A stretch of 64,000 nucleotides of DNA, from assembly GCA_031292255.1 (NCBI GenBank), contig JARLHN010000009.1, forward strand, positions 99,818 to 163,817. Direction: 5' to 3'. The notes beneath the pieces are model-generated. The model was not told the origin of the DNA. It searched no databases and was given only the letters and a program-made list of their open reading frames with translations. Positions within the stretch are counted from its first letter, which is position 1; each line of letters begins with the position of its first letter. This DNA comes from Oryzomonas sp. Its GTDB lineage: Bacteria; Desulfobacterota; Desulfuromonadia; Geobacterales; Pseudopelobacteraceae. The translations under genes and the position numbers were made by a program. This document shows positions 4,934 through 20,969 of this stretch, piece by piece.

Positions 4934-5065
4934 GGGTCACCTTCCCTCTGCAGGCCCGGGAGGCGGTATTAATGTGCGTTTGCAATTGACAACGATTACT
5001 GCGTTGCGATACGTTAAATTGTTCCCATCCGGAAACTGATTATAACAACTTTATGGGGAGGGGTT

Positions 5066-5659
5066 ATGAAAAATGTCTCTTTGCTCGCGTTTTTTCTGCT
5101 GTGCGGCGCATTGACAGTGTTTGCCAGGGATACGCTGCCTACCCCTGAAATATTGGGCAAGGAATCGATTTTTACCGCCCAGCGTCTGGGCGCCTACGAC
5201 ACGATAGTCGTCAGGGCGTTTTCCACCGACGGGGCTGAGTTGGCCAATCTGGACGACGAGGAAAAGAAGATCGTGGAGGAAATCAAGCCGACCATCGTCA
5301 AAAACCTGAAGGAAAGCCTTGTCAAGAACCTGAAAAAGGAAGGCAAGTTCAGGAATGTGCTTGCCAAAGGCGAGCCAAAGGGCAAAGCCGTCATCGTGGA
5401 AGGAAAGTTCACCAGGTTCAACGGCGGCATAGGCGCGGCCAAGTTTTTCCCGGGATGGATGGCGCCGAAGAGCGGCAAGACCAATATCTCGGTTACCGGC
5501 CGCCTGGTTGACGCCAAGACGGGCAAGGAATTGGCCACCTTCAGCGATACCCGATCCGGCGGCGAGGGGGGCGGACTGGGCCGCATCAGGGGGGTCATGC
5601 CGGTCCAGGCCACGGATGAGGGCGAGGAAATCGCCAACTTTATCCGCAAGCTCTACTGA
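5066..5659 (+). CDS. DUF4410-like secreted protein
   Basis: A 197-residue exported protein with a signal peptide (MKNVSLLAFFLLCGALTVFA) cut before RDTLPTPE. The body resembles DUF4410-type proteins: VEGKFTRFNGG, then SVTGRLVDAKTGKELATFSDTRSGG. The function is unknown. The start is ATG at 5066 behind GGGGAGG. A weak promoter-like TTGACA at 4986-4991 lies in the short divergent spacer. There is no Cys for lipidation, so it is probably periplasmic. Confidence 0.7.
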   Translation: MKNVSLLAFFLLCGALTVFARDTLPTPEILGKESIFTAQRLGAYDTIVVRAFSTDGAELANLDDEEKKIVEEIKPTIVKNLKESLVKNLKKEGKFRNVLAKGEPKGKAVIVEGKFTRFNGGIGAAKFFPGWMAPKSGKTNISVTGRLVDAKTGKELATFSDTRSGGEGGGLGRIRGVMPVQATDEGEEIANFIRKLY

Positions 5660-5687
5660 TACCAAGGTGGAATCAAAATGAGTACCA

Positions 5688-5755
5688 GGCGGCAAGGAGC
5701 ATAGCGACGGAGGCGTACTTTTCAGTACGTTGAGGAGTCACCGACGAAGCCAATA
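5688..5755. repeat. Dispersed intergenic repeat with GTAC-flanked hairpin, copy 1
   Basis: GC-rich non-coding block containing GGCGTACTTTTCAGTACG followed by TTGAGGAG and ACCGACGAAG. GTAC pairs with GTAC around a six-base loop. A second copy with the same order of words is at 63653-63720, upstream of glnA. Confidence 0.6.
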
Positions 5756-5841
5756 GCGTAATCGTTTGATTGTTACTTTCGTATGACGACTACAACAGCC
5801 CGCCTGCAATCAGGCGCAGGCTTTTCCCGAGGTACGCACCG

Positions 5842-6267
5842 ATGCGCGAGATCCGCGGCAATATCTGGGACTACCAAAAAACTGCCATGGTTGCCGTCAC
5901 CACCAATGGGCAGGTGACGAAAAACGCGGCCGTCATGGGCCGGGGAGTGGCTGCCCAGGCGGCGCGGCTCTTTCCCTGGTTTCCCGCAAGGCTTGGCGCC
6001 TGCATCGCAGAGAACGGCAACCATGTCCATCACCTGGGCGACAACCTGGTAAGCTTCCCGGTGGAACATTCCCCCTATGAGGTCCCCGACCTGAAACTGA
6101 TCGAGCGGTCTGCCCGTGAATTGGCCGCACTGGCCGACCAAGCGGGTTGGAACATGATCGTGGTGCCGCGGCCCGGCTGCGGGGGAGGGGGGCTGTCGTG
6201 GCATGACGTGCGCCCGCTGTTGGAACCCTATTTCGACGATCGTTTCCTGATAATCACGGCGGGATAG
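5842..6267 (+). CDS. Macro-domain-like protein
   Basis: About 141 residues from ATG 5842, which has GAGGT at 5829-5833. The frame is open from a TTG at 5770, but that part lies in repeat DNA. The pattern fits small macro-like, ADP-ribose-binding folds: IRGNIWDY, VTTNGQVTKNAAVMGRGVAAQAA, and a late VVPRPGCGGGGLSW before a short alpha/beta tail. Such proteins bind or hydrolyse ADP-ribose or related nucleotides. It stands alone, so the substrate cannot be inferred. Confidence 0.65.
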   Translation: MREIRGNIWDYQKTAMVAVTTNGQVTKNAAVMGRGVAAQAARLFPWFPARLGACIAENGNHVHHLGDNLVSFPVEHSPYEVPDLKLIERSARELAALADQAGWNMIVVPRPGCGGGGLSWHDVRPLLEPYFDDRFLIITAG

Positions 6268-6277
6268 CGTCAAAAGC

Positions 6278-6313
6278 CGTCTCTCACAGAGCTCAGGGAG
6301 GCACCGAGAAAAC
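6278..6313. repeat. Half of an intergenic CTCACAGAG-type repeat
   Basis: CCGTCTCTCACAGAGCTCAGGGAGGCACCGAGAAAAC matches the left arm of the paired elements at 27051, 58069 and 60029. No right arm is found before the helicase gene, so it looks like a solo arm. Confidence 0.5.
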
Positions 6314-6330
6314 AGGGGGAAGAACGGGGC

Positions 6331-6373
6331 GTTTATCCTCCCCTCCTGGTTTAGGAGGGGGTGGGGGTGGTAG
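6331..6373. repeat. C/G-rich palindromic repeat
   Basis: CCTCCCCTCCTGGTTTAGGAGG followed by GGGTGGGGGTGGTAG. Related to the blocks at 51514 and 58118. It sits just behind the macro-like gene and at the 3' end of the converging helicase gene, so it may serve as a terminator. Confidence 0.5.
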
Positions 6374-6398
6374 TATTCACAAGTTCTTCCGATTAAGG

Positions 6399-8405
6399 TT
6401 ACTCTCCCAGCATCCTCGCGAAAAAATCAGCTGCCAAATCCACCGTTTCCCCCTGTTTGTCCTCACCGCCTTGGTTCGATGAATCGATCAGCAGGTGCTC
6501 CGGTATCTCGGCCAGGAAACGGCTCGGCTTGCGCTCCTCGAGAGTGCCGTACTTCCTGCGCGTCAGACAGCGGGAGATGGTCAGGTGCTGCCGGGCGCGG
6601 GTGATGCCGACATAGCATAACCGTCGCTCCTCGGCGCAGCTCGGGTCCTCCTCCATGGAGCGTTTGTGGGGGAGAAGTTCCTCTTCCAACCCCACCAGAT
6701 AGACATGGCTGAACTCCAACCCCTTGCTGGAATGCAGCGACATGAGTGTGACGCTATTGTGGCCGAGCTCCTTGTTGTCCTCTGATTTTTCCTCGTCCAT
6801 CAGCGAGATCCGTTCCAGAAAGGCCGACAGGGTGGCCCTGGGGGTTTGGGCCTCGAATATGGCCAGGGAGTTGACTACCTGCTCGATGTTCTCGATCCGC
6901 TTGCGGGCCTGGGAGGCGTCGTTCAGGGTGCGGTACATCTCGTCTTCGATGCGCAGGCGGTTGAAGAGGGCATTGACCTGGGCGCCCATGTTGGTGCGGC
7001 TGAAACCGGCGATAACCTCCTTCATCATCCTGTGGAAGGCCCCTACCATCTTCTTGGACGACTCCGGGATATCGGCGATCTCCGCCACACGGCCCAGGGT
7101 CTCGAACAGTGCAACATTGTGCTCCAGGGACCATTGGTTGAGGCGAACCAGGGTAGTGTCGCCGATGCCCCGGCGGGGAAAATTGATGATGCGCAAGAGG
7201 GATGCCTCGTCGCCGGGATTGTCGATGACGCGCAGGTAGGCCACGGCGTCCTTGACCTCCTTGCGCTCGTAGAACTGCTGCCCCCCCACCACCACATAGG
7301 GAATGCGTTCCAGGCGCAGTTTTTCTTCAAAGGCCCGGCTCTGTGCGTTGGAGCGGTACAGCACGGCGAAATCTGACCAGGCGAGTTTGTCGCGGAACTG
7401 CTCCAGCATCATGCTGTCAACCACCCTGGCGGCTTCTTCCCCCTCGTCGGTCGCAACGATCATATCGATACCTCGTCCCTGGCCGCCGGCTGTCCAGAGC
7501 GCCTTGTCGGTGCGGACCGGATTGTTCCTGATGACGCTGTTGGCCGCATCCAGGATCGAACTGGTGGAGCGGTAATTCTGTTCCAGCTTGATCACCCGGC
7601 ATCCGGGGTAGTCCTGTTCGAAATTGAGGATGTTCTGCACCTCGGCCCCGCGCCAGCCGTAGATGGACTGGTCGTCGTCCCCCACCACGCAGATGTTGCC
7701 GTGCCTCTTGGCCAGAAGCGAGATCAACAGGTACTGGGAGGCATTGGTGTCCTGATATTCATCCACCATGATGTAGCGGAAGCGTTCCTGCCAGTACCCC
7801 AGGATGGCGGCGTTTGATTGCAAAAGTCCGACCGAGAACATGATGATGTCGTCAAAATCGATGGCGTTGAAGCCTTTGAGCAGTTCCTGGTAGCGGGGAT
7901 ACACGGCGGCCGCGGCCAATTCGAGTTTGTCGTCGTGGGCCGGCTTGAAGTCGGCCGGCCCGATCAGGCGGTTTTTGAGGCCGGATATTTTCCACAGGAT
8001 CAGGTCCGGGTCGCATTGCTTCGGGTCGATGTCCCGTTCGCGCATGGCCTGCCGCAGTACGCCGGACTGGTCCGACGAGGAGTAGATCGAGAAGTTGGGC
8101 TTGAAGCCCACGGCCCGGATGTCGCGCCGCAGGATGCGCACCCCCAGGGAGTGGAACGTGGAGATGACGATCCCGTCCGCTGTCCTGCCGGCCATGGCGC
8201 CGACGCGCTCCTTCATCTCCCGGGCCGCCTTGTTGGTGAAGGTCACGGCCAGGATGTTGTCGGCGGAGATGCGTTTGTCCTTGAGCAGGTGAACGATGCG
8301 GGTCGTGATGACCTGGGTCTTGCCGGAACCTGCCCCGGCCAGGATCAGCAGGGCGCCTTCGGTTTGGTTGACTGCCTGTTGCTGCGGCGGATTGAGTCGT
8401 TTCAT
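6399..8405 (-). CDS. UvrD/Rep-family ATP-dependent DNA helicase
   Basis: A 668-residue SF1A helicase. Walker A is GAGSGKT at residues 24-30, the DExx box is DEYQDTN near residue 215, and the family motifs GDDDQSIYGWRGAE and VTLMSLHSSKGLEF are present. It unwinds DNA 3' to 5' with ATP. Its length fits Rep or PcrA; no extra nuclease domain is present. No strong ribosome site is seen before ATG 8405. It is divergent from ppk across about 110 bp. Confidence 0.93.
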   Translation of the reverse strand: MKRLNPPQQQAVNQTEGALLILAGAGSGKTQVITTRIVHLLKDKRISADNILAVTFTNKAAREMKERVGAMAGRTADGIVISTFHSLGVRILRRDIRAVGFKPNFSIYSSSDQSGVLRQAMRERDIDPKQCDPDLILWKISGLKNRLIGPADFKPAHDDKLELAAAAVYPRYQELLKGFNAIDFDDIIMFSVGLLQSNAAILGYWQERFRYIMVDEYQDTNASQYLLISLLAKRHGNICVVGDDDQSIYGWRGAEVQNILNFEQDYPGCRVIKLEQNYRSTSSILDAANSVIRNNPVRTDKALWTAGGQGRGIDMIVATDEGEEAARVVDSMMLEQFRDKLAWSDFAVLYRSNAQSRAFEEKLRLERIPYVVVGGQQFYERKEVKDAVAYLRVIDNPGDEASLLRIINFPRRGIGDTTLVRLNQWSLEHNVALFETLGRVAEIADIPESSKKMVGAFHRMMKEVIAGFSRTNMGAQVNALFNRLRIEDEMYRTLNDASQARKRIENIEQVVNSLAIFEAQTPRATLSAFLERISLMDEEKSEDNKELGHNSVTLMSLHSSKGLEFSHVYLVGLEEELLPHKRSMEEDPSCAEERRLCYVGITRARQHLTISRCLTRRKYGTLEERKPSRFLAEIPEHLLIDSSNQGGEDKQGETVDLAADFFARMLGE

Positions 8406-8460
8406 AGATGATCAGGTGTACCACAAGCGGCGCTGTTGTGGCAAACCCGTTTCACGCTTG

Positions 8461-8488
8461 TTGCTAAGTCATAAAAATTATGTAATAT
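8461..8488 (+). promoter_or_regulatory. Putative sigma-70 promoter for ppk
   Basis: TTGCTA (8461-8466), 16 nt, then TAATAT (8483-8488), about 25 nt before the ppk start region. Judged by eye only. Confidence 0.4.
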
Positions 8489-8513
8489 CATCAGGTGAAA
8501 ATCAATCCACGTC

Positions 8514-10784
8514 ATGGAGATCACGGTGATAGCCTCTCCCCATACCAAGAAACAACCCCCGACTAAGGCTGAGCGAGGCAAGGCGGACAAGGCGAACGCT
8601 CCACCGGAAAAGGCACCCGGAGCCAAAGCATCAAAGCGTAAGCCCGCTGCGGCCGCGGGGGAGGGAACTTCGGCGGCGCCCGTGTTCGACCTGAACGACA
8701 GCGAATGGTATCTCAACCGCGAGCTGACCTGGCTGGGGTTCAACCAGCGGGTGCTGCACGAGGCCGAGGACAGCCGTACGCCCCTGCTTGAGCGCCTGAA
8801 GTTCATCGCCATTGTCAGCTCCAACCTGGACGAGTTCTTCATGAAGCGTATCGGCGGCCTCAAGCAGCAGATCGGCGCCGTCATGCGGGAACTGACCCTG
8901 GACGGCCGCACGCCCCGCCAGCAGGTACAGGAATGCCACCTTGTCATCCGCGCTCTGGAGGCCAAGAAAGACCAGCTTTTCTGCCAGATACGCTCCATGC
9001 TGGAGGAAAAGGGCATCGCCATAGAATCCTATGGTGAGCTCACGTCTAAAGAGAAAAAAACGATCCGTGAACATTACTATACCAATATATTCCCCTTGTT
9101 GACCCCCCAGTCGATCGACCCGGCCCATCCGTTCCCGTTTATTTCCAACCTGTCGCTCAACCTGCTGGTGACCCTGCGCTATCCCAGGGCGCGGGAGGTG
9201 TCCCTGGCGCGGGTCAAGGTCCCGGTCGGTCTGGGAACGCCCCGTTTCATCAGGGTGGGGAAGGGCGATCATTTCGTCTGCCTGGAAGACGTGATGATGA
9301 ACAACCTGGACATGCTCTTTCCCGGAATGAATATCGTTAGTTGCGAAATCTTTCGGGTGACCCGCAATTCCAATACCGAGAGGGATGAAGACGAGGCCGA
9401 CGATCTGATGGCCATGATCGAGTCCGAGTTGAAGGAGCGTAAATTCGCCCCGATCGTGCGCATGGAGATCGGAACCGGCATGGACCCGGTCCATCGCGGC
9501 CGTCTGGCGGCTGAGCTGGAACTGGATGAGGAGAACGATGTCTTCGAAGTTCCCGGCCTTCTTGCCATGCGCGACCTGTTCGAACTGGTCGGTCTCGATT
9601 ATGCCCGGCTGCACGATCCGCCTCATTACCCCATCGAGCATCCCCAGTTGCAGACGACGCGCAACATCTTTCACATCATCCGCGATTGCGGGTCTATTCT
9701 CCTGCAGCACCCCTACGAATCCTTCTCCACCTCGGTGGAGCGCTTCCTGCGTGAAGCGGCCACCGACCCCAAGGTGCGCGGCATCAAAATGACCCTCTAC
9801 CGCACCTCTGTTCAGGGCCGCATCATCGATTCCCTGGTGCTGGCAGCCCAGAACGGCAAGCAGGTGGCTGTGGTGGTGGAACTCAAGGCCCGTTTCGACG
9901 AGGCTGCCAATATCCGGTTGGCGGAACGGATGGAAGAGGCCGGTATCCATGTGACCTACGGCGTGGTCGGGCTCAAGACCCATTGCAAGGTGATCCTGGT
10001 GGTGCGCCAGGACTACAATGGACTGCGGAGATATGTTCACATAGGCACCGGAAACTACCATGCCGAAACAGCGCGCATCTACAGCGATCTGGGGTTTTTG
10101 ACCTGCGACCAGACCATCGGCCAGGATGTGACGGAACTCTTCAACTACCTGACCACCGGCTTTATGGCGAAACGCAACTACCAGAAGATCGTGCCGGCGC
10201 CCCGCATGCTGAAAAAGGCGCTTCTGTCGCGGATTGAACGGGAAATCGAACTGCATCGCCAAAAAGGGGGCGGTTTGATCCAGTTCAAGATGAATGCCCT
10301 TGAGGACGGCGACATCGTCAAGGCGCTCTACCGCGCATCCCAGGCCGGGGTGAAGATCGACCTGGTGGTGCGCGACACATGCCGGCTCCGCCCCGGAATT
10401 CCCGGACTTTCCGAAAACATTCGCGTCATGAGTATCGTCGGGCGTTTCCTGGAACACTCCCGCCTTTATTATTTCAGGAATGGCGGGGCCGATGAATATT
10501 TCATCGCCTCGGCCGACGCCATGAAGCGCAACCTGGAAGCGCGCGTTGAGGTTCTCTGCCCGATCGAGTCCCCGGAGTTGACCAAAGAGTTGCGAGCCAT
10601 CTTCGATATCCATATCTCCGACCAATGCTCGGCCTGGGATATGCAACCGGACGGCAGCTATATCCAGCGCATGCCTGTCGCGGAGTCTTCCCCCTGCGGC
10701 AGCCATCACTTGATAATTGAGCGGGCTTCCAAGCGTCTCAGGGAATCCCTTAAGCAAAAGAAAAAACTCAGGTTGAACCCATGA
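8514..10784 (+). CDS. ppk1: Polyphosphate kinase 1
   Basis: Reversibly builds polyphosphate from the gamma phosphate of ATP. The order is complete: the N domain (DLNDSEWYLNRELTWLGFN), the Ser-Asn-Leu-Asp-Glu-Phe segment (SSNLDEFFMKRIGG), then two phospholipase-D-like domains. The catalytic His is at about residue 509 in VHIGTGNYHAETARIYSDL. The first 45 or so residues are low-complexity Lys/Ala/Pro and not conserved. ATG 8514 has no ribosome site. GTG 8526 has GGAG six bases upstream and may be the true start. A rho-independent terminator follows at 10821. Confidence 0.96.
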   Translation: MEITVIASPHTKKQPPTKAERGKADKANAPPEKAPGAKASKRKPAAAAGEGTSAAPVFDLNDSEWYLNRELTWLGFNQRVLHEAEDSRTPLLERLKFIAIVSSNLDEFFMKRIGGLKQQIGAVMRELTLDGRTPRQQVQECHLVIRALEAKKDQLFCQIRSMLEEKGIAIESYGELTSKEKKTIREHYYTNIFPLLTPQSIDPAHPFPFISNLSLNLLVTLRYPRAREVSLARVKVPVGLGTPRFIRVGKGDHFVCLEDVMMNNLDMLFPGMNIVSCEIFRVTRNSNTERDEDEADDLMAMIESELKERKFAPIVRMEIGTGMDPVHRGRLAAELELDEENDVFEVPGLLAMRDLFELVGLDYARLHDPPHYPIEHPQLQTTRNIFHIIRDCGSILLQHPYESFSTSVERFLREAATDPKVRGIKMTLYRTSVQGRIIDSLVLAAQNGKQVAVVVELKARFDEAANIRLAERMEEAGIHVTYGVVGLKTHCKVILVVRQDYNGLRRYVHIGTGNYHAETARIYSDLGFLTCDQTIGQDVTELFNYLTTGFMAKRNYQKIVPAPRMLKKALLSRIEREIELHRQKGGGLIQFKMNALEDGDIVKALYRASQAGVKIDLVVRDTCRLRPGIPGLSENIRVMSIVGRFLEHSRLYYFRNGGADEYFIASADAMKRNLEARVEVLCPIESPELTKELRAIFDIHISDQCSAWDMQPDGSYIQRMPVAESSPCGSHHLIIERASKRLRESLKQKKKLRLNP

Positions 10785-12126: not shown

Positions 12127-13824
12127 ATGGCCAAGATAGTGGTTGACCCGATTACCAGGATTGAAGGACATCTTCGCATCGAGGCCGAGATCAATGACGG
12201 CAAGATTACCGATGCCTGGAGTTCCAGCACCATGTTCCGCGGTATCGAGAAGATTCTCAAGGGGCGCGACCCGCGGGATGCCTGGTTCTGGACCCAGCGT
12301 TTCTGCGGCGTCTGCACCACCGTGCACTCCATCGCCTCCATCCGGGCCGTTGAGGATGCACTCAAGATCAAGATCCCTCCCAACGCCCAGTTGATCAGAA
12401 ACATCATCATCGGCATCCAGAACGTGCAGGATCATGTCATCCACTTCTATCATCTGCATGCCTTGGACTGGGTGGACGTGACCTCGGCCCTCAAGGCCGA
12501 CCCGGCCAAGACTTCGGCCCTGGCCGCTTCGCTTTCCGATTGGCCCAACAACTCCGCAACCTACTTCAAGTCGGTTCAGGACAGGCTCAAGTCCTTCGTG
12601 GCCTCGGGCCGTCTCGGCCCCTTTGCCAACGCCTACTGGGGCCACCCGGCCTACAAGCTCCCCCCCGAGGCCAACTTGATGGCAACGGCCCACTATCTTG
12701 AGGCCTTGGAGTGGCAGAAGGACATTATCAGGATCCACGCCATCCTGGGGAGCAAGAATCCCCATCCCCAGACCTTTCTTGTTGGGGGGATGTCGATCCC
12801 CATCGATCCCGACTCCCAGAACGCCCTCAACGCCGACAAGCTGGAGGAGATCAAGCGCTTGCTGAAAAAGGCCCAGGATTTCGTGGAAAAGGTCTATATC
12901 CCGGATCTCTTGGCAATTGCCTCCTTCTACAAGGAGTGGGCCGCTATCGGCGGCGGGGTGGGCAATTTCCTCTGCTACGGCGAGTTTCCCGATGCGGCCG
13001 GCAATCTCTGGTTTCCCCAGGGCGCCATCCTGGGTAAGGATCTCACCAAGGTGCTGCCGGTGGATCAGAAAAAGGTGGCCGAATATGTGGACCATTCCTG
13101 GTACGAATACACCGGCGGCCCGAAAAAGGGGCTCCATCCCTTTGATGGCGAAACGGAAGAGCATTACAGCGGCCCCAGGCCCCCCTACGAATTCCTGGAT
13201 ACGGACAAAAAATACTCCTGGGTCAAGGCGCCGCGCTATGACGAAAAGGCCATGGAGGTAGGCCCCCTGGCCAGGGTGCTGGTGGCGTACGCATCCGGCC
13301 ACAAGGAGGCCAAGGCGGCGGTGGATATGGTGCTGAACAAGCTGGGTGTCGGCCCCGAGGCGCTCTTCTCCACCTTGGGGAGGACCGGAGCCCGCGGCAT
13401 CGATTGCCTGCTGATCGCCCGCAAGACTCCCGCGTGGCTGGACGAGCTGATCGTCAACATCTCCAAGGGGGATTACCGCATTCATGCCAACGAGAAATGG
13501 GATCCGAGCGAATGGCCCGCCGAGGCCAGCGGCTACGGCTGGCATGAGGCGCCGCGTGGCGCCTTGGGGCATTGGATCAAGATCAGGGACCAGAAGATCC
13601 TCAATTACCAGGCGGTTGTCCCTTCCACCTGGAACGCCTCTCCACGCGACGCCAAAGGGCAGCGCGGACCCTATGAAGCCGCCCTGGTCGGAACCCCGGT
13701 GGCCGATTCCGCCAAGCCGCTCGAGATCCTGCGCACCGTCCACTCCTTTGACCCGTGCCTGGCCTGCGCCGTTCACGTGATGGATGCCACCGGCAACGAA
13801 GTGATCAAGGTAAACGTTTCCTAG
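12127..13824 (+). CDS. hyaB: [NiFe] hydrogenase large subunit
   Basis: Catalytic subunit carrying the Ni-Fe(CN)2CO site; oxidises H2. The N-terminal ligand motif RFCGVC has C60 and C63. The C-terminal DPCLACAVH has C544, C547 and H550, so a 15-residue tail after His550 should be removed by the protease at 14543. GGGAGG lies just before ATG 12127, and the gene starts 3 bases after the small subunit stop. Length 565 is normal for group 1 enzymes. Maturation genes hypABCDEF are not in the window. Confidence 0.96.
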   Translation: MAKIVVDPITRIEGHLRIEAEINDGKITDAWSSSTMFRGIEKILKGRDPRDAWFWTQRFCGVCTTVHSIASIRAVEDALKIKIPPNAQLIRNIIIGIQNVQDHVIHFYHLHALDWVDVTSALKADPAKTSALAASLSDWPNNSATYFKSVQDRLKSFVASGRLGPFANAYWGHPAYKLPPEANLMATAHYLEALEWQKDIIRIHAILGSKNPHPQTFLVGGMSIPIDPDSQNALNADKLEEIKRLLKKAQDFVEKVYIPDLLAIASFYKEWAAIGGGVGNFLCYGEFPDAAGNLWFPQGAILGKDLTKVLPVDQKKVAEYVDHSWYEYTGGPKKGLHPFDGETEEHYSGPRPPYEFLDTDKKYSWVKAPRYDEKAMEVGPLARVLVAYASGHKEAKAAVDMVLNKLGVGPEALFSTLGRTGARGIDCLLIARKTPAWLDELIVNISKGDYRIHANEKWDPSEWPAEASGYGWHEAPRGALGHWIKIRDQKILNYQAVVPSTWNASPRDAKGQRGPYEAALVGTPVADSAKPLEILRTVHSFDPCLACAVHVMDATGNEVIKVNVS

Positions 13825-13837
13825 AAAGGGGGCAGGT

Positions 13838-14503
13838 ATGAGCGGGCAGTGCAAATTCAAGAATTACATCTGGGAATTGCCGTTACGCTGGTGTCACTGG
13901 ATCAATGTGATGTGCATCGTCGTGTTGTCGGTGACCGGCTTCTTCATCGGCACGCCATTCTCGTTCGGCCGTTCTGCATCTGATTTTACGATTGGATGGA
14001 TTCGTTTTATCCATTTTACGGCCGCCTATCTGTTTGCCGTCAGCGTGATCTCGCGGGTGCTTTGGTCGTTCATTGGCAACAAATACGCCGGCTGGAAGGA
14101 ATTTTTCCCCCTGGCCACCGACAAGGGGCGCCAAAAGTTTATCGGGATGCTGCGGTATTATCTGCTGATCGACAAGGATGTGCCCGAGACCGTTGGGCAT
14201 AACCCCCTGGCCACGACCGCCTATATCGGTCTGTTCTGCATCTATTCGATCATGATCCTGACCGGTTTTGCGCTGTATGCCGAACACGCGCCCGGCTCTC
14301 CGATGTATCGGGTGTTTGGATTCATGTATGCCATGTTCAGCAACCAGGGTATGCGCCTGACCCACCATTTCTGCATGTGGCTGATCGTCGGCTTTGTCAT
14401 CAACCATATCTACAGCGCCTGGTTGATGGACATCAAGGAGCATGGCAGCGAGATCTCCAGCATGTTCTGCGGCTATAAATTCACCGTAAAAAAAGAGGAT
14501 TAG
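13838..14503 (+). CDS. hyaC: Ni/Fe-hydrogenase b-type cytochrome subunit
   Basis: A 221-residue membrane protein of the HyaC/HydC type. It takes electrons from the small subunit and passes them to the quinone pool through two b haems. Four hydrophobic segments are visible. Candidate haem His residues are in RWCHWINV, IRFIHFTAAYLF, LTHHFCMWL and VINHIYSAWL. AAGGGGGCAGG precedes ATG 13838, 14 bases after the large subunit. Its presence indicates a respiratory, quinone-linked hydrogenase. Confidence 0.93.
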   Translation: MSGQCKFKNYIWELPLRWCHWINVMCIVVLSVTGFFIGTPFSFGRSASDFTIGWIRFIHFTAAYLFAVSVISRVLWSFIGNKYAGWKEFFPLATDKGRQKFIGMLRYYLLIDKDVPETVGHNPLATTAYIGLFCIYSIMILTGFALYAEHAPGSPMYRVFGFMYAMFSNQGMRLTHHFCMWLIVGFVINHIYSAWLMDIKEHGSEISSMFCGYKFTVKKED

Positions 14504-14542
14504 CGACTGTATTGCGTCTATGCCATGAAACGGGAGAAAGTT

Positions 14543-15040
14543 ATGAATCCATGTGACACATCCGCGGCCATTTTGGTGCTCGGCATCGGCAACCTGGTGA
14601 TGGGCGACGACGGGGCCGGCGTGCGGGTTGTCCAGGAACTTCGGAAGCGCTACCTCTTTCCTCCCCATGTGGAGATCATGGATGGGGGCACCCTGGGGCT
14701 GGACCTCCTGCCCAAGCTGGAGGGGATCGGGCGGCTTCTGGTGGTGGATGCGGTTGAAACGGGAGGCGAGCCGGGAACACTGGTGCGGCTGATGGGGGAG
14801 GAGTTGCCGATTGCCCTTCAAACCAAGGTTTCTCCGCACCAGATGGGACTCAAGGATCTTCTTGCCGTGGCGGAACTGATGGGACACTCCCCACGGGAGA
14901 TGGTGCTGGTCGGTATCCAGCCTGCCGGTATCGGGATGGGTGTCGAACTCTCTCCACATGTTGCTGGACGGCTTGAAGAAATGATATCCAACGTAGTGAC
15001 AAATCTGAATGAATGGGGTGTTGAAGCACACCCCGTCTAA
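14543..15040 (+). CDS. hyaD: Hydrogenase maturation endopeptidase (HyaD/HybD type)
   Basis: Removes the C-terminal tail of the large subunit after Ni insertion. Family motifs: VLGIGNLVMGDDGAGVRV at the N-terminus with the Ni-sensing acidic residue region, VVDAVETGGEPGT, and SPHQMGLKDLL with the ligand His. An upstream ATG at 14525 is in frame, but GGGAG at 14532-14536 points to ATG 14543 (165 residues). Its stop overlaps by 4 bases the stop of the converging gene at 15037. Confidence 0.93.
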   Translation: MNPCDTSAAILVLGIGNLVMGDDGAGVRVVQELRKRYLFPPHVEIMDGGTLGLDLLPKLEGIGRLLVVDAVETGGEPGTLVRLMGEELPIALQTKVSPHQMGLKDLLAVAELMGHSPREMVLVGIQPAGIGMGVELSPHVAGRLEEMISNVVTNLNEWGVEAHPV

Positions 15041-15465
15041 CCGAGCTTTTTTTTCATTTCCAGGACATTTCCGCCATTGTTTTTTTTGTACTCCACGGAA
15101 TCCATCAATGACCGGATGATGAAGATGCCGCGCCCCTTTTCGCCGAGCTGGTCCGATTCGAAACTGGGGTCAGGTACGTTGGTGAGGTCAAAACCCTGAC
15201 CGCTGTCATAAATCTTGATACAGATCTCCTGGTTGGAGGCGCTGATGCGGATCTTGATCTCCTTATTGGGGTCGGCTGCATTGGCGTGTTTGATGGCGTT
15301 TACCACGCCCTCGGTCAGCACTACATTGAGGTGGTGCGCCAATGCTTCCCGGTCCCCCTTGAAACGGTCCAGCTCCCGCGCCACATTCTCGCCGATCTTG
15401 CCGATCATGCTCAGGTAACGGGTCTGGTTGGGTACAACTATCTCGATGTCGATGATGTTCTTCAT
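15037..15465 (-). CDS. RsbW-like anti-sigma factor / serine-protein kinase
   Basis: A 142-residue HATPase_c protein. It shows the N box in VVNAIKHAN, the G1 box YDSGQGFD and the G2-like GEKGRGIFIIRSLMD, as in RsbW/SpoIIAB kinases, which phosphorylate a STAS partner and bind a sigma factor or another target. The frame is open further upstream, but ATG 15465 has GAGGT in front. Last gene of a minus-strand operon, 49 bases behind the STAS gene. No sigma factor gene is adjacent, so the output target is unknown. Confidence 0.88.
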   Translation of the reverse strand: MKNIIDIEIVVPNQTRYLSMIGKIGENVARELDRFKGDREALAHHLNVVLTEGVVNAIKHANAADPNKEIKIRISASNQEICIKIYDSGQGFDLTNVPDPSFESDQLGEKGRGIFIIRSLMDSVEYKKNNGGNVLEMKKKLG

Positions 15466-15514
15466 GACAACCTCGTGGATGAGAAGGCTGCTGGTATGTG
15501 AATGAGGGCCGTGC

Positions 15515-15850
15515 TCAGTAGCTTTCCAGCGCATCATCAACAGTCTGAAAGATGTCGAATACCCTGTGCAGGCGGGTCAGCTCGAACATCGACTTGACCT
15601 GGCTCTGGAGTCCGGAGAGTTTAAAGCTCCCCTGGCGCGCGGACGCATTCTTGAATCCTGATACCAGCACTCCCAATCCGGAACTGTCGATGAAGCGCAC
15701 CTCTTTGAGATCGATCAGCAGGTCTTTCGTCCCGCTGTCGAACAGGCGGTTCAGTTCGGCCTTGAGTTCGTCGGAGTTGTGTGCGTCAAGGCGCTCCTCT
15801 TTTACGTAAATGATCCTGACGGCTCCGTTGACTTCGATCTTTAATTGCAT
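15515..15850 (-). CDS. STAS-domain anti-sigma factor antagonist (RsbV/SpoIIAA-like)
   Basis: A 111-residue single STAS domain. The conserved phosphorylation loop VRFIDSSGLGVLVSG places Ser56/Ser57 at the site phosphorylated by RsbW-type kinases and dephosphorylated by PP2C phosphatases. AAGGAG precedes ATG 15850. It sits between the PP2C fusion (15905) and the kinase (15037), which completes a partner-switching trio in one operon. Confidence 0.93.
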   Translation of the reverse strand: MQLKIEVNGAVRIIYVKEERLDAHNSDELKAELNRLFDSGTKDLLIDLKEVRFIDSSGLGVLVSGFKNASARQGSFKLSGLQSQVKSMFELTRLHRVFDIFQTVDDALESY

Positions 15851-15904
15851 GGTTAACTCCTTTTTTTTGTCCTCCTGGCGCTTGGCCGGGAAACAGTGGT
15901 GTAT

Positions 15905-18900
15905 TTACAGTATCTTGAGCACAACCAGCGAGATATCGTCCTGAAAGGTTTCAGAAGCGGTGAAGTCTCTGACCGCCGTATAGAACGATTCGATGATCTC
16001 CCGGGCCGGCAGGTGCCGTTGCGTGCCCAGGAGAGCGCAAACACGCTCGTTTCCGAATAATACGTCACGGTCGTTGCGCGCCTCGGTCAAGCCGTCCGTA
16101 TAGAAGAGCAGCACATCGCCCGACTTAAGTTCGAAACTGCGCTCCTCGAACACCACCGAGGTCTTGACGCCGAGGATCAAGCCTTCCGTATCCAGCTCGA
16201 TGCATAATTGCTCTCCCTCCCGACTGATCATGGGGCGGTTGTGACCGGCATTGGCGAAGGAGAGACGGCCGGTGGCAGAGTTATACTTGGCGTAGAACAT
16301 GGTGATGAACAGTTCGGCGCGGGTCAGATCATCGTAAAGCTGGCTGTTGAGGAGTTGCAAGATGGCGCTGGCGCTGTTGGCCGAATTGACCTGGGCGCGC
16401 AGCAGGGTGCGTACCTCGGCCATGATCAGGGCCGCGCCGACGCTGTGCCCGGAAACGTCGGCGATCAGCAGATCGATGGTTTGACTGTCCCGTTTGAAAA
16501 AATCATAATAATCCCCCCCCACATGGGCGGCCGAGATACAGCGGCCCGCCAAGTCTATCCCGAACGTTTCCGGGGCGGCGTCGGGCAAAAGCGATATCTG
16601 GATCTGCTGGGCGATCTCCATATCCCGCATGACCCGAGCCTTTTCAAGGAGAGCCTGCTCCTTTTCATTCCGTTCGTGTTCTTTTGCCTCCATCTCGCGA
16701 ACAATAGTGGCTGCCTGGGCCAGTTGGCCCGCCAGGCTGCACAGCAGGCTGATGAACTCCTCAGTGAATATTCCCGTGATCGACTTGGAAAAAACCGATA
16801 GAACACCCAATGACGGCTCTCCCTCGCGGAAAATGGGGAGATAGGCGCAGGAGACGATTCCCTCCGCAAGCGTCTGTTCGAGGTTGATGGTAGCCTCGAT
16901 CTGACTGGTGTCGTTGACGAAATGCGGTTTGCGGTCCAACATCGCCATATCCCAGTAAGCTGCGTTTTCCATGAACCAGTGGTTCTGGTTGATGGGGCGC
17001 CGGTTGCTCCCCTGATAGCTTTTGACCGCAAGGGTGCCGTTGCCGTTGCGCAGTTGGATGATGGCCACATCCAGCCTGAATTCCTTGAGCAGCAGGCTGA
17101 GCAGGTCATCCATGATGATCTGGAGATCAAGGGTGCGGTTGATGATCTCGGATGCCTTCAGGCGGACGTAGAGGGCTTCGCGGCTCTGATCAAGGGAGGT
17201 GCGGACGGAACTGAAGATGTCGTAGACCGATTCCATGCGCGATCCCATGTCGGAGAGAAAACTTTCCACAATAGCCCCGGCGGCGGCTGCCCCGACCGAT
17301 CCGGCCAGGGTCTTCTCGGCGAAACGCTTGAGGTTTGGGAGTTCGAACTCGGAAACGTTGCCGTCCGGACGTATCTCCCGGTTGCCCAGGTGACTGCTGA
17401 TTGCCTTGTGCGCATCCGCTTCTCCGATGAATTTGGCCATCAGGTTGACGAACTGGCTGATGGTGACCGGTTTGGAGAGGCGTTTGGTTTCGGCCGGATG
17501 GTCGTAGGCGCGTTCCAGATCGTAGATGCCGATGAAACGTTGTACCTGCTCGCGCTCAGCCTCGTCCTGGCGTAACAGGATCGAGCAGAAGATATAGGCG
17601 CTGACGTTGAACAGCATGCTCCAGAACAGGGAGTGACTCCACAGGTCCATGTTGCTGAGACCGAACAGTTCGGTCGGTTTGAGAAGTCCGATGCCGAAAG
17701 GACCTTTTGTGAGCAGGTCCGTCCCAAGCCAGCCGGATTTGCTGAACGAAGGCAGCAGCAGGGTATAGGTCCATATCAGAAAGCCGAACAGGATGCCGGT
17801 AATGGCGCCGGTTTTGTTGCCGCGCTTCCAGTAGAGGCCGCCCAGCATGGCCGGAAGGAACTGGCAGGCGGCCGAGAAGGAGATCAGCCCCATGTTGACC
17901 AGCATATAGGTGTCGCCAACCATCCGGTAGTAGAAATACCCCAGAAAGATCACCAGGAAGATGCCCAGACGTTTCAGGTTGATCAGCAGATAGGGGAACC
18001 AGGGTTGGGGGGTGAACCGAACGATGACCGGCATGAAGATATTGTTGAGCAACATGGTGGATATGGCGACCGACTCCACCATCACCATCCCGGCGGCGGC
18101 AGACAAGCCTCCCAGGAAGGCAAGCAGGGCGATGGGGCCGTGCCCGCTCAAAAGCGGGATGCTGATAACGAAAAAATCGGCGCCGCTGCTGCTGCCGGTG
18201 GTCATGATGCCACCCATGGCAATCGGCATGACAAACAGGTTGATCAGGAAGAGGTAGGCGGGAAAGAGCCACATGGCCTTGGTAATGTGTCTTTCGTCCG
18301 AATTTTCGATCACCATGACATGGAATTGGCGCGGCAGGAGCATGATGGCGGCCATGGACATGGAAAGCATGGTGAAGGACGGTATGTAGTCCGGATCGTT
18401 TCTGGCGCCGCCGAAGGTGAAAAGCTGTTCGAACAGTTCGGGACGGGCGGCATGAAAACGGGTGAAGATATCGCCGAAACCGTCGTACAGGTAATAGGTG
18501 ACGAAGATGCCCACGCCGAGCAGGCTGACCAGTTTTACCAGCGATTCGAACGCCACGGCGGCGATCAATCCCTCGTGGCGTTCACTCGATGCCAGCCTGC
18601 GGGCTCCGAAGATGATACTGAAGACCGACAGGATCAGTGCCAGCAGCATGCCGGTCGGCACCGTCAGTTCCGTACCGTTGTGGGGGATGTGGATACGGTT
18701 GGCCTGGAATCCGCTGATCAGGTAGAAACTGGTGGAAACGGCCCGAATCTGCAAAGCGATATAGGGCATGATGCCCAGTATGGAGATCAGGGACACCAAG
18801 GCGCCAAGCCAGAGGGATTTGCCGTAGCGCAGGCTGATGAAGTCGGCGATCGAGGTGATGTTGTTCTCCTTGCTGATCCGAACGATGCGGCGCAAGAGAA

Positions 18901-19156
18901 AAAACCAGGAAAAGGCGGTCAAAGACGGCCCGACGTAGATCATCAGGAAGTCCAGGCCGGTGGTGGCAGCCTTGCCGACGCTGCCGTAAAAGGTCCACGA
19001 TGTGCAATAGACCGCTATGGACAGGGAGTAGACGTAGGGGTTGTCGACGATGCTCCGGCCGGTTTCCTTGCGGCGATGGGCATACCAGGCGATCAGAAAG
19101 ATCAGCGCGGTGTAGAGGGTTGATATGATGGCCGCGTGGGCAAAGCCGGAATTCAC
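15905..19156 (-). CDS. SSS transporter-like domain fused to GAF and SpoIIE-type PP2C phosphatase
   Basis: A 1083-residue fusion. Residues 1 to about 525 are a multi-pass sodium:solute symporter-like region (NPYVYSLSIAVYCTSWTFYGSVGKAA), like the input half of CbrA-type sensor kinases. A linker near 530-640 resembles the STAC segment. A GAF-like domain spans roughly 650-820, followed by a coiled coil. The PP2C/SpoIIE domain is about 840-1083, with the metal-binding acids GGDYYDFF near 883, ADVSGHSVGAAL near 900 and FYTDGLTEARN. Where CbrA has a histidine kinase this protein has a phosphatase, so it probably dephosphorylates the STAS protein at 15515. GTG start; GTGA overlap with the small gene upstream. 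Confidence 0.9.
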   Translation of the reverse strand: MNSGFAHAAIISTLYTALIFLIAWYAHRRKETGRSIVDNPYVYSLSIAVYCTSWTFYGSVGKAATTGLDFLMIYVGPSLTAFSWFFLLRRIVRISKENNITSIADFISLRYGKSLWLGALVSLISILGIMPYIALQIRAVSTSFYLISGFQANRIHIPHNGTELTVPTGMLLALILSVFSIIFGARRLASSERHEGLIAAVAFESLVKLVSLLGVGIFVTYYLYDGFGDIFTRFHAARPELFEQLFTFGGARNDPDYIPSFTMLSMSMAAIMLLPRQFHVMVIENSDERHITKAMWLFPAYLFLINLFVMPIAMGGIMTTGSSSGADFFVISIPLLSGHGPIALLAFLGGLSAAAGMVMVESVAISTMLLNNIFMPVIVRFTPQPWFPYLLINLKRLGIFLVIFLGYFYYRMVGDTYMLVNMGLISFSAACQFLPAMLGGLYWKRGNKTGAITGILFGFLIWTYTLLLPSFSKSGWLGTDLLTKGPFGIGLLKPTELFGLSNMDLWSHSLFWSMLFNVSAYIFCSILLRQDEAEREQVQRFIGIYDLERAYDHPAETKRLSKPVTISQFVNLMAKFIGEADAHKAISSHLGNREIRPDGNVSEFELPNLKRFAEKTLAGSVGAAAAGAIVESFLSDMGSRMESVYDIFSSVRTSLDQSREALYVRLKASEIINRTLDLQIIMDDLLSLLLKEFRLDVAIIQLRNGNGTLAVKSYQGSNRRPINQNHWFMENAAYWDMAMLDRKPHFVNDTSQIEATINLEQTLAEGIVSCAYLPIFREGEPSLGVLSVFSKSITGIFTEEFISLLCSLAGQLAQAATIVREMEAKEHERNEKEQALLEKARVMRDMEIAQQIQISLLPDAAPETFGIDLAGRCISAAHVGGDYYDFFKRDSQTIDLLIADVSGHSVGAALIMAEVRTLLRAQVNSANSASAILQLLNSQLYDDLTRAELFITMFYAKYNSATGRLSFANAGHNRPMISREGEQLCIELDTEGLILGVKTSVVFEERSFELKSGDVLLFYTDGLTEARNDRDVLFGNERVCALLGTQRHLPAREIIESFYTAVRDFTASETFQDDISLVVLKIL

Positions 19157-19410
19157 TGTTGTGGGTTCTCCGGGGTTTTATCGGCGGTGTGGCTGACGGC
19201 CAGGGTGAAAAGATAGATGACAAAGATGGAAACCGCCCAGCCGAGGAAAAAGTAGAGGAACATGAGCGGGTAGCCGAAGATGGTGCTCGGCTTGTTGAAG
19301 ATATGAAGGAAGGGAAAATTCATCATGATAAAGCCCACGACGAACAAAATGACCCATGATTCCCGGAATTGGAGCCGTCGCAGGAGCTTGTTACGCAGCC
19401 GGTTCGTCAT
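19153..19410 (-). CDS. Small 2-TM membrane protein, putative partner of the SSS domain
   Basis: 85 residues with two hydrophobic spans (WVILFVVGFIMMNFPFLHIF and a second about residues 46-71) and short charged ends. ATG 19410 has GAGG 8 bases upstream. It overlaps both neighbours by four bases (TCAT upstream, GTGA downstream), so all three are translated together. Small 2-TM proteins commonly precede SSS transporters (for example DUF485/YjcH before ActP). This one may play that role for the fused SSS domain. That is inference from position and size. Confidence 0.75.
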   Translation of the reverse strand: MTNRLRNKLLRRLQFRESWVILFVVGFIMMNFPFLHIFNKPSTIFGYPLMFLYFFLGWAVSIFVIYLFTLAVSHTADKTPENPQQ

Positions 19411-20969
19411 TGCGCAAGCCTCGCGTAGATCGGGCTGGTGAGGGTTTCGGGAGAAGCGGCGGTGGAAACGTTCAGCACGATACCCTCCGACCCATCCGGC
19501 GGTTGGAAGTTGTTTCGCTGCAATTCGAGGATTTCCAGCCGGCCGTCGGAAACGCTCTTGCCGGCAGTTTCCCGTTCCACCAATCGGCGACGCTGCTCCG
19601 GGTCCGGGCAGGAGCATTGCAGCACGACGCACGGCACTCCGAGTCTTGCAGCCAGCCGGCTAAAGGGTCGGCGCTGCTCACGGCTGATGAAGCAGGCATC
19701 GATGATAACGGAACGGCCCGCAACGAGTTCGGCCTCCGACAGGCGCAACAGTTCGGCATAGGTGGCCTCGCTTGCCGCGGCCGAGTAGAGACCGGTTTCG
19801 AACGGTATGCGCATGGCGGTATCCGGCGGCAGGCTTGCCATCTGTTTGCGGACCCTGTCCGAATTATAGGTTGCCATGCCGAGCTCAAAGGAGAGTTGCG
19901 CCGCCAGCGTGCTTTTACCGCTCCCGGTCAGGCCGCAGGTGATGAAAAGGGTGGTTTTCAGGCGCTGCCGTTCAAGGTAGCCACGCGCCAGCCGGAAATA
20001 TCCGGCGGCCCTCATCCCGGCTTGTTCCCGCTCCTGTTGTTCGATACCGGTGTCGCTCTGGCGGAAGCTTTCCACCTTGCCCCGCACGAACGCGCGATAA
20101 AGCTTGTAGAAATCAATCATCTCACAAAGGCCGGAATCACCGGAAGCGGTCAGGTATTCATCGAGTACCGCCTCAGCCAGGTCGTGACGGCGGTGATAGT
20201 CCAGATCCATGAGGAGAAAGGCGACATCGGCGGCAGTGTCGCAGTAACGGAAGCGCTCGTTGAATTCGATGCAGTCGAAGATGTGAATCCTGCCGTCGGT
20301 CAGGCAGATGTTTTCCAGATGGATGTCTCCGTCGCATTCCCGGATGAACCCGCCTGCTATCCGCCCTTCGAAGATCTCTGCCCTGTCTTCGATGAATGAT
20401 GACACCCATTCCCGGATCACCTCCAACTCCTGGAAAGAGAGCGGCGTTTGCGGGTTGGCCGCACACTGGGCAAAATTTTCCTGCCAATTGGCCAAGATCC
20501 GTTCCCGTTGGCCGTAAACGCTTATGGCGGGCGAGGTTGCGGCGGCGTGGTGGAACGCGGCAATGACCCTGGCCACTGCCCGCATGTCGGCCGTGGTTAC
20601 CTCTCCGCGTTCCACCAGCCGGTCAAGCATCCGTTCAGCCGGCAGCCGCCTCATCTTGACGGCATAGTCGATAACCGGGCCGTCGCCGAAGAAGGCGGCT
20701 CCGCCCGGGGACTCACGCACCTCGACAACTCCCAGATAGATATCCGGGCAGAGACGGCTGTTGAGCCGTACCTCCTCATGGCAGTAAAATCGGCGTCGGT
20801 CAATGGTGGAGAAGTTGAGAAACCCGAAATCCACGGGTTTTTTGATCTTGTAGGCGGTGTCGCCCGCCAGGAATATCCAGGAGACATGCGTCTGGATCAA
20901 CTCGACGGAGCTGACCGGCTCCGGGTAGGCGTCTATTTTTAATAATGATTTTATGATATAACGTTGCAT
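19407..20969 (-). CDS. Bifunctional aminoglycoside-phosphotransferase-like / P-loop kinase protein
   Basis: About 520 residues. The N-terminal half is an APH-like kinase fold with the catalytic-loop pattern CDGDIHLENICL and the metal-binding IFDCIEFNERFRYCD. The C-terminal half is a zeta-toxin/AAA_33-like P-loop kinase, FITCGLTGSGKSTLAAQL. This two-domain type is widespread and its substrate is unknown; there is no reason to call it a resistance gene. The frame is open to 21002, but ATG 20969 is preferred. First gene of the partner-switching operon, overlapping the small membrane gene. Confidence 0.85.
   Translation of the reverse strand: MQRYIIKSLLKIDAYPEPVSSVELIQTHVSWIFLAGDTAYKIKKPVDFGFLNFSTIDRRRFYCHEEVRLNSRLCPDIYLGVVEVRESPGGAAFFGDGPVIDYAVKMRRLPAERMLDRLVERGEVTTADMRAVARVIAAFHHAAATSPAISVYGQRERILANWQENFAQCAANPQTPLSFQELEVIREWVSSFIEDRAEIFEGRIAGGFIRECDGDIHLENICLTDGRIHIFDCIEFNERFRYCDTAADVAFLLMDLDYHRRHDLAEAVLDEYLTASGDSGLCEMIDFYKLYRAFVRGKVESFRQSDTGIEQQEREQAGMRAAGYFRLARGYLERQRLKTTLFITCGLTGSGKSTLAAQLSFELGMATYNSDRVRKQMASLPPDTAMRIPFETGLYSAAASEATYAELLRLSEAELVAGRSVIIDACFISREQRRPFSRLAARLGVPCVVLQCSCPDPEQRRRLVERETAGKSVSDGRLEILELQRNNFQPPDGSEGIVLNVSTAASPETLTSPIYARLAQ

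Follow-up and report, generated by a model that had tools for sequence, protein, structure and literature searches.

The window, a stretch of 64,000 nucleotides from an Oryzomonas genome, carries a run of five minus-strand genes. Four of them form a conserved core: a small protein with two transmembrane segments (the 2-TM protein), a fusion of a transporter-like SLC5 (SSS) domain with STAC, GAF and PP2C domains, a STAS protein and an RsbW-like kinase. The fusion is probably an SLC5/STAC receptor of the CbrA, CrbS and RpuS kind, whose SpoIIE-type PP2C output feeds an RsbV/RsbW-like partner switch. SLC5/STAC transceptors have been studied mainly as kinases, and the question at stake is whether the transporter part drives the output. 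The features of the run are as follows.

19407..20969, minus strand: APH-like/AAA_33 P-loop kinase, 520 residues (Pfam AAA_33, 1.1e-29); first gene of the run, outside the conserved core
19153..19410, minus strand: 2-TM protein, 85 residues (hydropathy maxima at 20–38 and 54–72), CbrX-like in place and topology
15905..19156, minus strand: SLC5(SSS)–STAC–GAF–PP2C fusion, 1083 residues, GTG start (10ed_A, 2qyb_A and Pfam SpoIIE matches; AlphaFold2 (AF2) model, pLDDT 81.9)
17522..19144, minus strand: SLC5 transporter-like domain, residues ~5–545 (CbrA alignment, Foldseek, pocket residues)
17246..17479, minus strand: STAC-like helical bundle, residues ~560–637 (aligned to the STAC part of 10ed_A; model helices)
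16763..17167, minus strand: GAF domain, residues ~664–798 (Pfam GAF_2; 2qyb)
16589..16762, minus strand: long helix between GAF and PP2C, residues 799–856 (a single helix in the AF2 model)
15908..16579, minus strand: PP2C/SpoIIE phosphatase domain, residues ~860–1083 (metal-binding acids; Foldseek)
15515..15850, minus strand: STAS anti-anti-sigma-like protein, 111 residues (Pfam STAS, 5.5e-22; alignments to RsbV and SpoIIAA)
15037..15465, minus strand: RsbW-like serine kinase/anti-sigma-like protein, 142 residues, ATG at 15465 (Pfam HATPase_c_2, 4.1e-26; RsbW 6m36_A, 3.4e-11)

The five genes lie at their predicted places in this order. The start of the 2-TM gene overlaps the preceding APH gene by ATGA and its end overlaps the fusion by GTGA; gaps of 54 nucleotides separate the fusion from the STAS gene and of 49 nucleotides the STAS gene from the ATG of the RsbW-like gene. 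In the fusion, Pfam recognises SpoIIE at residues 892–1082 (5.2e-50) and GAF_2 (8.5e-14), while the APH model matches the first gene at 0.0073 only, below the cut-off. An earlier note on this DNA had described these genes and their overlaps as a CbrA-type sensor with a serine phosphatase in place of the histidine kinase, accompanied by a small membrane subunit and a complete partner-switching set. The open reading frames, overlaps and domains are confirmed, and the evidence below supports the phosphatase output, the small gene as a conserved partner and the partner-switching set.

The membrane part of the fusion is homologous to that of CbrA, as judged from sequence comparison. The Pfam SSF model does not match the fusion at E-values up to 1, and the NCBIfam VC_2705 symporter model matches part of it (3.9e-8). 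The gap left by Pfam is filled by a PDB sequence search, in which chain 10ed_A, the SLC5–STAC part of Pseudomonas putida CbrA, matches residues 8–635 (1.6e-71). In Foldseek, the membrane part matches NIS, SGLT and a sialic acid symporter, and 10ED is absent from the 50 matches listed for the fusion model. Beyond the SLC5 domain, the STAC bundle is modelled as helices 566–577, 579–590, 606–621 and 623–637, and the 10ed_A alignment reaches residue 635. In CbrA, K196 occupies the Na2 site and the STAC bundle is docked beneath the SLC5 core, according to the available text of PMC13022988. The nine pocket residues named for CbrA in that paper map by alignment to Y50, T52, W54, T55, F70, Y74, K208, S267 and F427 of the fusion. 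K208 aligns with K196 and is retained in 79 of 80 PP2C-type rows that have the small gene and in 57 of 57 rows with a histidine kinase (HK-type). Since its counterpart fills the Na2 site of CbrA, the SLC5 domain is predicted to be linked to protons, not sodium. Locus L062 of genome G013 has valine instead of this lysine.

Across 36 PP2C-type rows, a set that omits the orphan paralogue L148, conservation is 98.5% for the nine pocket residues, 71.2% for SLC5, 69.3% for STAC, 62.9% for PP2C, 59.8% for the joining helix and 57.4% for GAF, the lowest part of the protein. None of 20,000 random nine-site sets from the SLC5 domain was as conserved as the pocket, and one of 20,000 when residue types were matched. 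The SLC5 core and its pocket are thus conserved, whereas loss of the family core had been put forward as a reason to doubt the fusion. The SLC5 part could instead be a degenerate transporter that serves purely as a membrane anchor: the Pfam SSF model misses the window protein, and the pocket has drifted in orphan paralogues (see below). With the pocket and K208 near-invariant in the family that bears the small gene, this explanation is very improbable. At 14 pocket and neighbouring sites, the window protein equals L110 at 12, L217 at 10 and CbrA at 8. As the match is best with L110 (called CrbS/MxtR-like from its order of PAS, HisKA, HATPase and receiver domains), then with L217 (taken as RpuS of pNGR234b, being placed between transporter-like and regulator-like genes as read from sequence) and then with CbrA, it hints at a small monocarboxylate rather than histidine as the ligand.

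The output of the fusion is SpoIIE/PP2C and not HisKA/HATPase by Pfam, which places it outside the histidine-kinase subfamily of SLC5/STAC proteins. The metal-binding acids of the phosphatase, the loss of which would have spoken against a working enzyme, are intact in the alignment: all 37 rows keep D882, D885, D900 and D1021, and 36 keep D1074, the other having a gap. Foldseek matches of this part are RssB, Rv1364c and SpoIIE. Residues 664–841 match 2qyb_A, the GAF domain of a Geobacter sulfurreducens 'membrane protein, putative' (3.5e-52), which Foldseek also finds. In the AF2 model, built from 49 rows, one helix (799–856) joins GAF to PP2C. This predicted arrangement fits the published proposal that helical linkers are a general means of controlling PP2C dimers (PMC12143880, in its available text).

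The partner-switching set has intact motifs. Alignments to RsbV (6m36_B) and SpoIIAA (1th8_B) place the serine equivalent to the phosphosite of the STAS protein at S57, in DSSGLG. The kinase aligns with RsbW (6m36_A) and SpoIIAB (1til_A), and its sequence has what we take to be intact N, G1 and G2 boxes. The Oryzomonas genome has 13 HATPase_c_2 matches, three over the cut-off, and that of the window is the strongest by far (91.6 against 31.4 bits). The genome also has six genes with sigma70 region 2 and four SpoIIE-type domains, that of the window and three more. One of the latter, at L216 (contig C35, 4475–6676), is a further PP2C gene whose neighbours are a HATPase-like gene (25.1 bits, below the cut-off) and a 110-residue gene that reads like STAS and is not matched by the STAS profile.

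The 2-TM protein holds the place of CbrX, being small, predicted to span the membrane twice and encoded upstream of an SLC5–STAC sensor gene with an overlapping start. Of 182 loci, duplicates included, 163 have a relative immediately upstream of the sensor according to a profile built from 26 PP2C-type and five HK-type proteins and then iterated, which gives no match below 1e-5 at any other place in the loci; the small gene is therefore a conserved partner of the SSS part, as had been proposed. The loci with the small gene include HK-type sensors in records titled Nitrospirae, Alpha- and Betaproteobacteria and Chloroflexales. When built from only the 26 PP2C-type proteins, the profile matches the small gene before an Azoarcus SLC5–GGDEF–EAL protein (4.4e-14), so that family members adjoin SLC5–STAC sensors with phosphatase, histidine-kinase or GGDEF–EAL output. 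The protein keeps its motifs across phyla and is under purifying selection, as estimated from ratios of nonsynonymous to synonymous substitution rates of 0.45, 0.19, 0.18 and 0.19 against four same-genus copies. Among the 19 loci without the small gene are 11 PP2C-type orphans (L051, L052, L053, L058, L068–L071, L080, L148 and L149); the remainder are L098, L100, L102, L107, L110, L113, L176 and L184, some of them short. A small 2-TM partner is already in print for Pseudomonas and Azotobacter (CbrX; available text of PMC6591292), and CbrX is described as binding CbrA, packed on TM3/TM8 (PMC13022988). PDB sequence searches with the 2-TM protein or its profiles gave nothing meaningful and no CbrX, the presence of the CbrX chain in the searched set being unchecked.

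The unit is conserved in relatives. Of 92 deduplicated PP2C-type loci, 73 have flanks of 2.2 kb or more upstream and 1 kb or more downstream; among these, the small gene, STAS and RsbW are all present in 64 and all absent in seven; two (L066 and L129) are scored as lacking the small gene because their SLC5 match is split. For all 92 loci the corresponding numbers are 79, 10 and two, with one incomplete locus (L140, which ends 127 nucleotides past the fusion). The APH/P-loop gene is present in 47 of the 64 complete loci and absent in 17, and was on that account rejected as part of the core; of the five-gene order proposed in the earlier note, four genes stand and the P-loop kinase does not. In 57 related genomes the fusion search gives matches in every one, and the full fusion is not found in every one. 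With E up to 1e-10, 54 of these genomes have an RsbW relative; the three without are G017 (100% complete), G047 (99%) and G030 (52%), which also lack a near full-length or SLC5-covering fusion match among the matches listed. The 2-TM gene, fusion, STAS and RsbW are co-inherited. The fusion is in pieces in G003, G007, G029, G035 and G044; at L031 (G003, of the same genus) the gene is broken into two reading frames close to where the PP2C domain begins (~8412–8688). The nearest named record of the fusion protein is from Oryzomonas japonica (L114; 91%), in a search that may not include records of the window's own genome.

The phosphatase output appears to have arisen within this class. Of 395 genomes sampled from the phylum, each scored for its two best candidates, 78 match at 1e-60; 17 of these have a full-length fusion and belong without exception to this class, and for the remaining 61 the matches listed stop before PP2C. 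Matches occur in 387 plasmid and 11 phage records, none of which covers 80% of the fusion. A quick maximum-likelihood tree of 155 rows has a group of 94 (SH-aLRT 99) that takes in all 89 PP2C-type rows plus five truncated or unclassed ones and lies among HK-type rows. This topology fits a single switch from kinase to phosphatase output in Desulfuromonadia. At L073–L078, genomes of the order have SLC5–GAF–histidine-kinase relatives, each with its own 2-TM gene, preceded by a conserved gene of ~806 residues.

Nine orphan SLC5–PP2C paralogues, without STAS or RsbW, are spread over eight genomes, each of which has the full unit as well; the comparison leaves out L080 (split) and L148 (a copy of L069). 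Their occurrence can be read as favouring a general switch, in which STAS and RsbW are fed by several phosphatases and the fusion is one input, its main substrate possibly being another STAS. The three further SpoIIE-type domains of the Oryzomonas genome, one of them beside a HATPase-like gene, could be taken in the same way. Such a switch is unlikely, given that the small gene, STAS and RsbW are jointly present or absent in 71 of the 73 loci as scored. The company that the orphans keep is judged uninformative, since a unit this frequent (RsbW in 54 of 57 genomes) would be expected to accompany them by chance. The orphans differ in their pockets. With T/S and Y/F swaps allowed, a non-conservative change at one of seven core pocket sites is found in seven of nine orphans, in one of 80 copies with the small gene (L062) and in none of 57 HK-type rows. 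At 13 pocket sites, namely the nine from the CbrA paper plus four neighbouring ones added in this analysis, the orphans are 67.5% intact against 90.7% at other conserved SLC5 sites, and 0.005% of control sets were as low. The nine represent four changes on the tree, two of them forced by supported branches, and are not nine independent cases. The same receptor with a PP2C output, together with these natural paralogues that lack the small gene and have a drifted pocket, offers direct tests of receptor–output coupling.

Among known systems, CbrXA of Pseudomonas (PDB 10ED) shares the SLC5–STAC membrane part, the Na2-site lysine and the upstream small 2-TM gene with overlapping start. It differs in output, CbrA having PAS and histidine-kinase domains and pairing with the response regulator CbrB, where the window has GAF and PP2C with STAS and RsbW. 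Three of the nine pocket residues also differ (S53/T52, A56/T55 and F248/S267 in CbrA and the fusion, respectively). In SLC5–STAC identity the fusion is closer to L110 (39.3%) and L217 (38.3%) than to CbrA (29.8%); CrbS/MxtR and RpuS, which serve acetate and pyruvate use, differ again in their histidine-kinase output. On the Azoarcus plasmid locus L213, a 64-residue gene of the small family precedes the SLC5–GGDEF–EAL protein (3287–6677), whose SLC5 part is 43.2% identical to that of the fusion. This protein differs in its cyclic di-GMP output and at six of the 14 pocket sites compared, among them that of Y74, where it has asparagine. Its annotated start (3735) is probably too late, since the frame is open and SLC5-like upstream. 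Diguanylate cyclase outputs are already in print (PMC7096432, in part). The RsbU/RsbP/RsbZ–RsbV–RsbW and SpoIIE–SpoIIAA–SpoIIAB switches have the same phosphatase, STAS and kinase set with the defining residues, and differ in that the present unit has a transporter-like membrane input and no sigma factor gene. Human SGLT–MAP17, judging by structure titles, is likewise an SLC5 protein with a small membrane partner. MAP17, the partner of SGLT, is unrelated to the 2-TM protein. An SSS domain with GAF, PP2C_SIG and HATPase is mentioned for Actinobacteria in the available part of a review (PMC7918813). Titles and abstract starts among the matches listed contain no SLC5–STAC–PP2C protein of Desulfuromonadia; the STAC founding paper (Korycinski 2015) may list such fusions.

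Most likely, the state of the SLC5 core sets the activity of PP2C on STAS through the STAC bundle and the long helix, a coupling that, like the ligand and the kinase's target, we infer. Like CbrX on CbrA, the 2-TM protein would sit on the SLC5 core. A change in the core, on binding or protonation, would move the STAC bundle, and the signal would then pass through GAF and the long helix to the switch element of PP2C. Active PP2C would dephosphorylate S57 of STAS, and the unphosphorylated STAS would capture the kinase and free its target. Since no gene for a dedicated sigma factor is found with the unit, a general sigma factor or some regulator other than a sigma factor is the probable target. 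Genes with sigma70 region 2 number four each in G017 and G047, which lack the unit, and 4–6 and four in their respective kin with it; the comparison yields no candidate for a dedicated sigma factor.

Several points weigh against a receptor of this kind. In the available text of PMC7096432, CbrA without its SLC5 part activates targets as the wild type does, the SLC5 part modulating kinetics; histidine had no seen effect on the CbrA kinase, and transport and kinase signalling are largely separable. Sequence-altered CbrX still supports translation of CbrA, and growth on histidine did not need cbrX (PMC6591292 and PMC13022988, both in part). Because in this work the kinase signals without SLC5, histidine has no effect and the sequence of CbrX is dispensable, the central idea of the earlier note, a direct conversion of transport or binding into dephosphorylation of STAS, is plausible and unproven. 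Homology of the 2-TM protein to CbrX is not detectable: with the iterated profile, the Amphritea L212 protein, used for this comparison instead of P. putida CbrX, scores 12.8 bits against 12.5 for the best of 2,000 shuffled decoys. The 58-residue L212 gene was taken as CbrX from the order dksA, gluQRS, 58-residue gene, CbrA-like gene, sigma-54 regulator. No such small gene lies beside the CrbS-like L110 or the RpuS-like L217. Among SLC5 columns with conservation of 85% or more, the pocket of the main family does not stand out (0.946 against 0.961, with control sets as low in 14%). No target of the RsbW-like kinase was found in the genome comparisons described above. The pTM of the AF2 model, 0.58, makes the placement of domains uncertain; the tree has long branches, CbrA being one of unsure placement. 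Finally, in none of 10 HK-type sensors lacking a detected small gene are the core sites changed (four of the 10 gained a small gene on profile iteration), and L213 has asparagine at the Y74 site despite its small gene, so that the link between loss of the small gene and drift of the pocket holds only within the PP2C group.

The CbrA results also lend themselves to another explanation, in which GAF, or another cytoplasmic cue, is the true sensor, the SLC5–STAC part is a modulating transporter or anchor, and the 2-TM gene mainly couples translation. Signalling by CbrA without SLC5, translation supported by altered CbrX, and the four-nucleotide overlap of the small gene with the fusion in 58 of 80 PP2C-type loci would all suit it. 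That overlap is found in only seven of 51 HK-type loci (and in six of nine unclassed ones), motifs kept across phyla and purifying selection are not needed for coupling alone, and GAF is the least conserved part of the protein where the SLC5 domain is the most. This explanation is possible and, on balance, doubtful.

A broader form of the SLC5/STAC receptor proposal is put forward tentatively and is itself rather unlikely to hold in full. It takes the 2-TM protein to be an ancient working subunit of a large SLC5–STAC receptor branch. In Geobacter-like bacteria the complex would be a proton-linked receptor for a small monocarboxylate of the acetate/pyruvate class, as suggested by the CrbS/RpuS-like pocket, and its occupancy would lead to STAS dephosphorylation without a kinase cascade. 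PP2C paralogues without the subunit would have changed or abandoned their ligand. Apart from this proposal, small partners that resemble CbrX in position and topology occur in several phyla and make up a family with conserved motifs of its own; in the Geobacter order, the unit points to a membrane input into a partner switch.

Two minor observations concern the surroundings of RsbW-like genes. A second such gene (60% identical) occurs in two genomes, at L214 (6917–7357) and L215 (7010–7450), with no match to the PP2C, STAS or SLC5 profiles within the surrounding 14 kb. In the window, plus-strand genes at 12127–15040, presumably encoding a NiFe hydrogenase large subunit, cytochrome b and a maturation protease, run toward the RsbW-like gene and overlap its end by four nucleotides (15037–15040).

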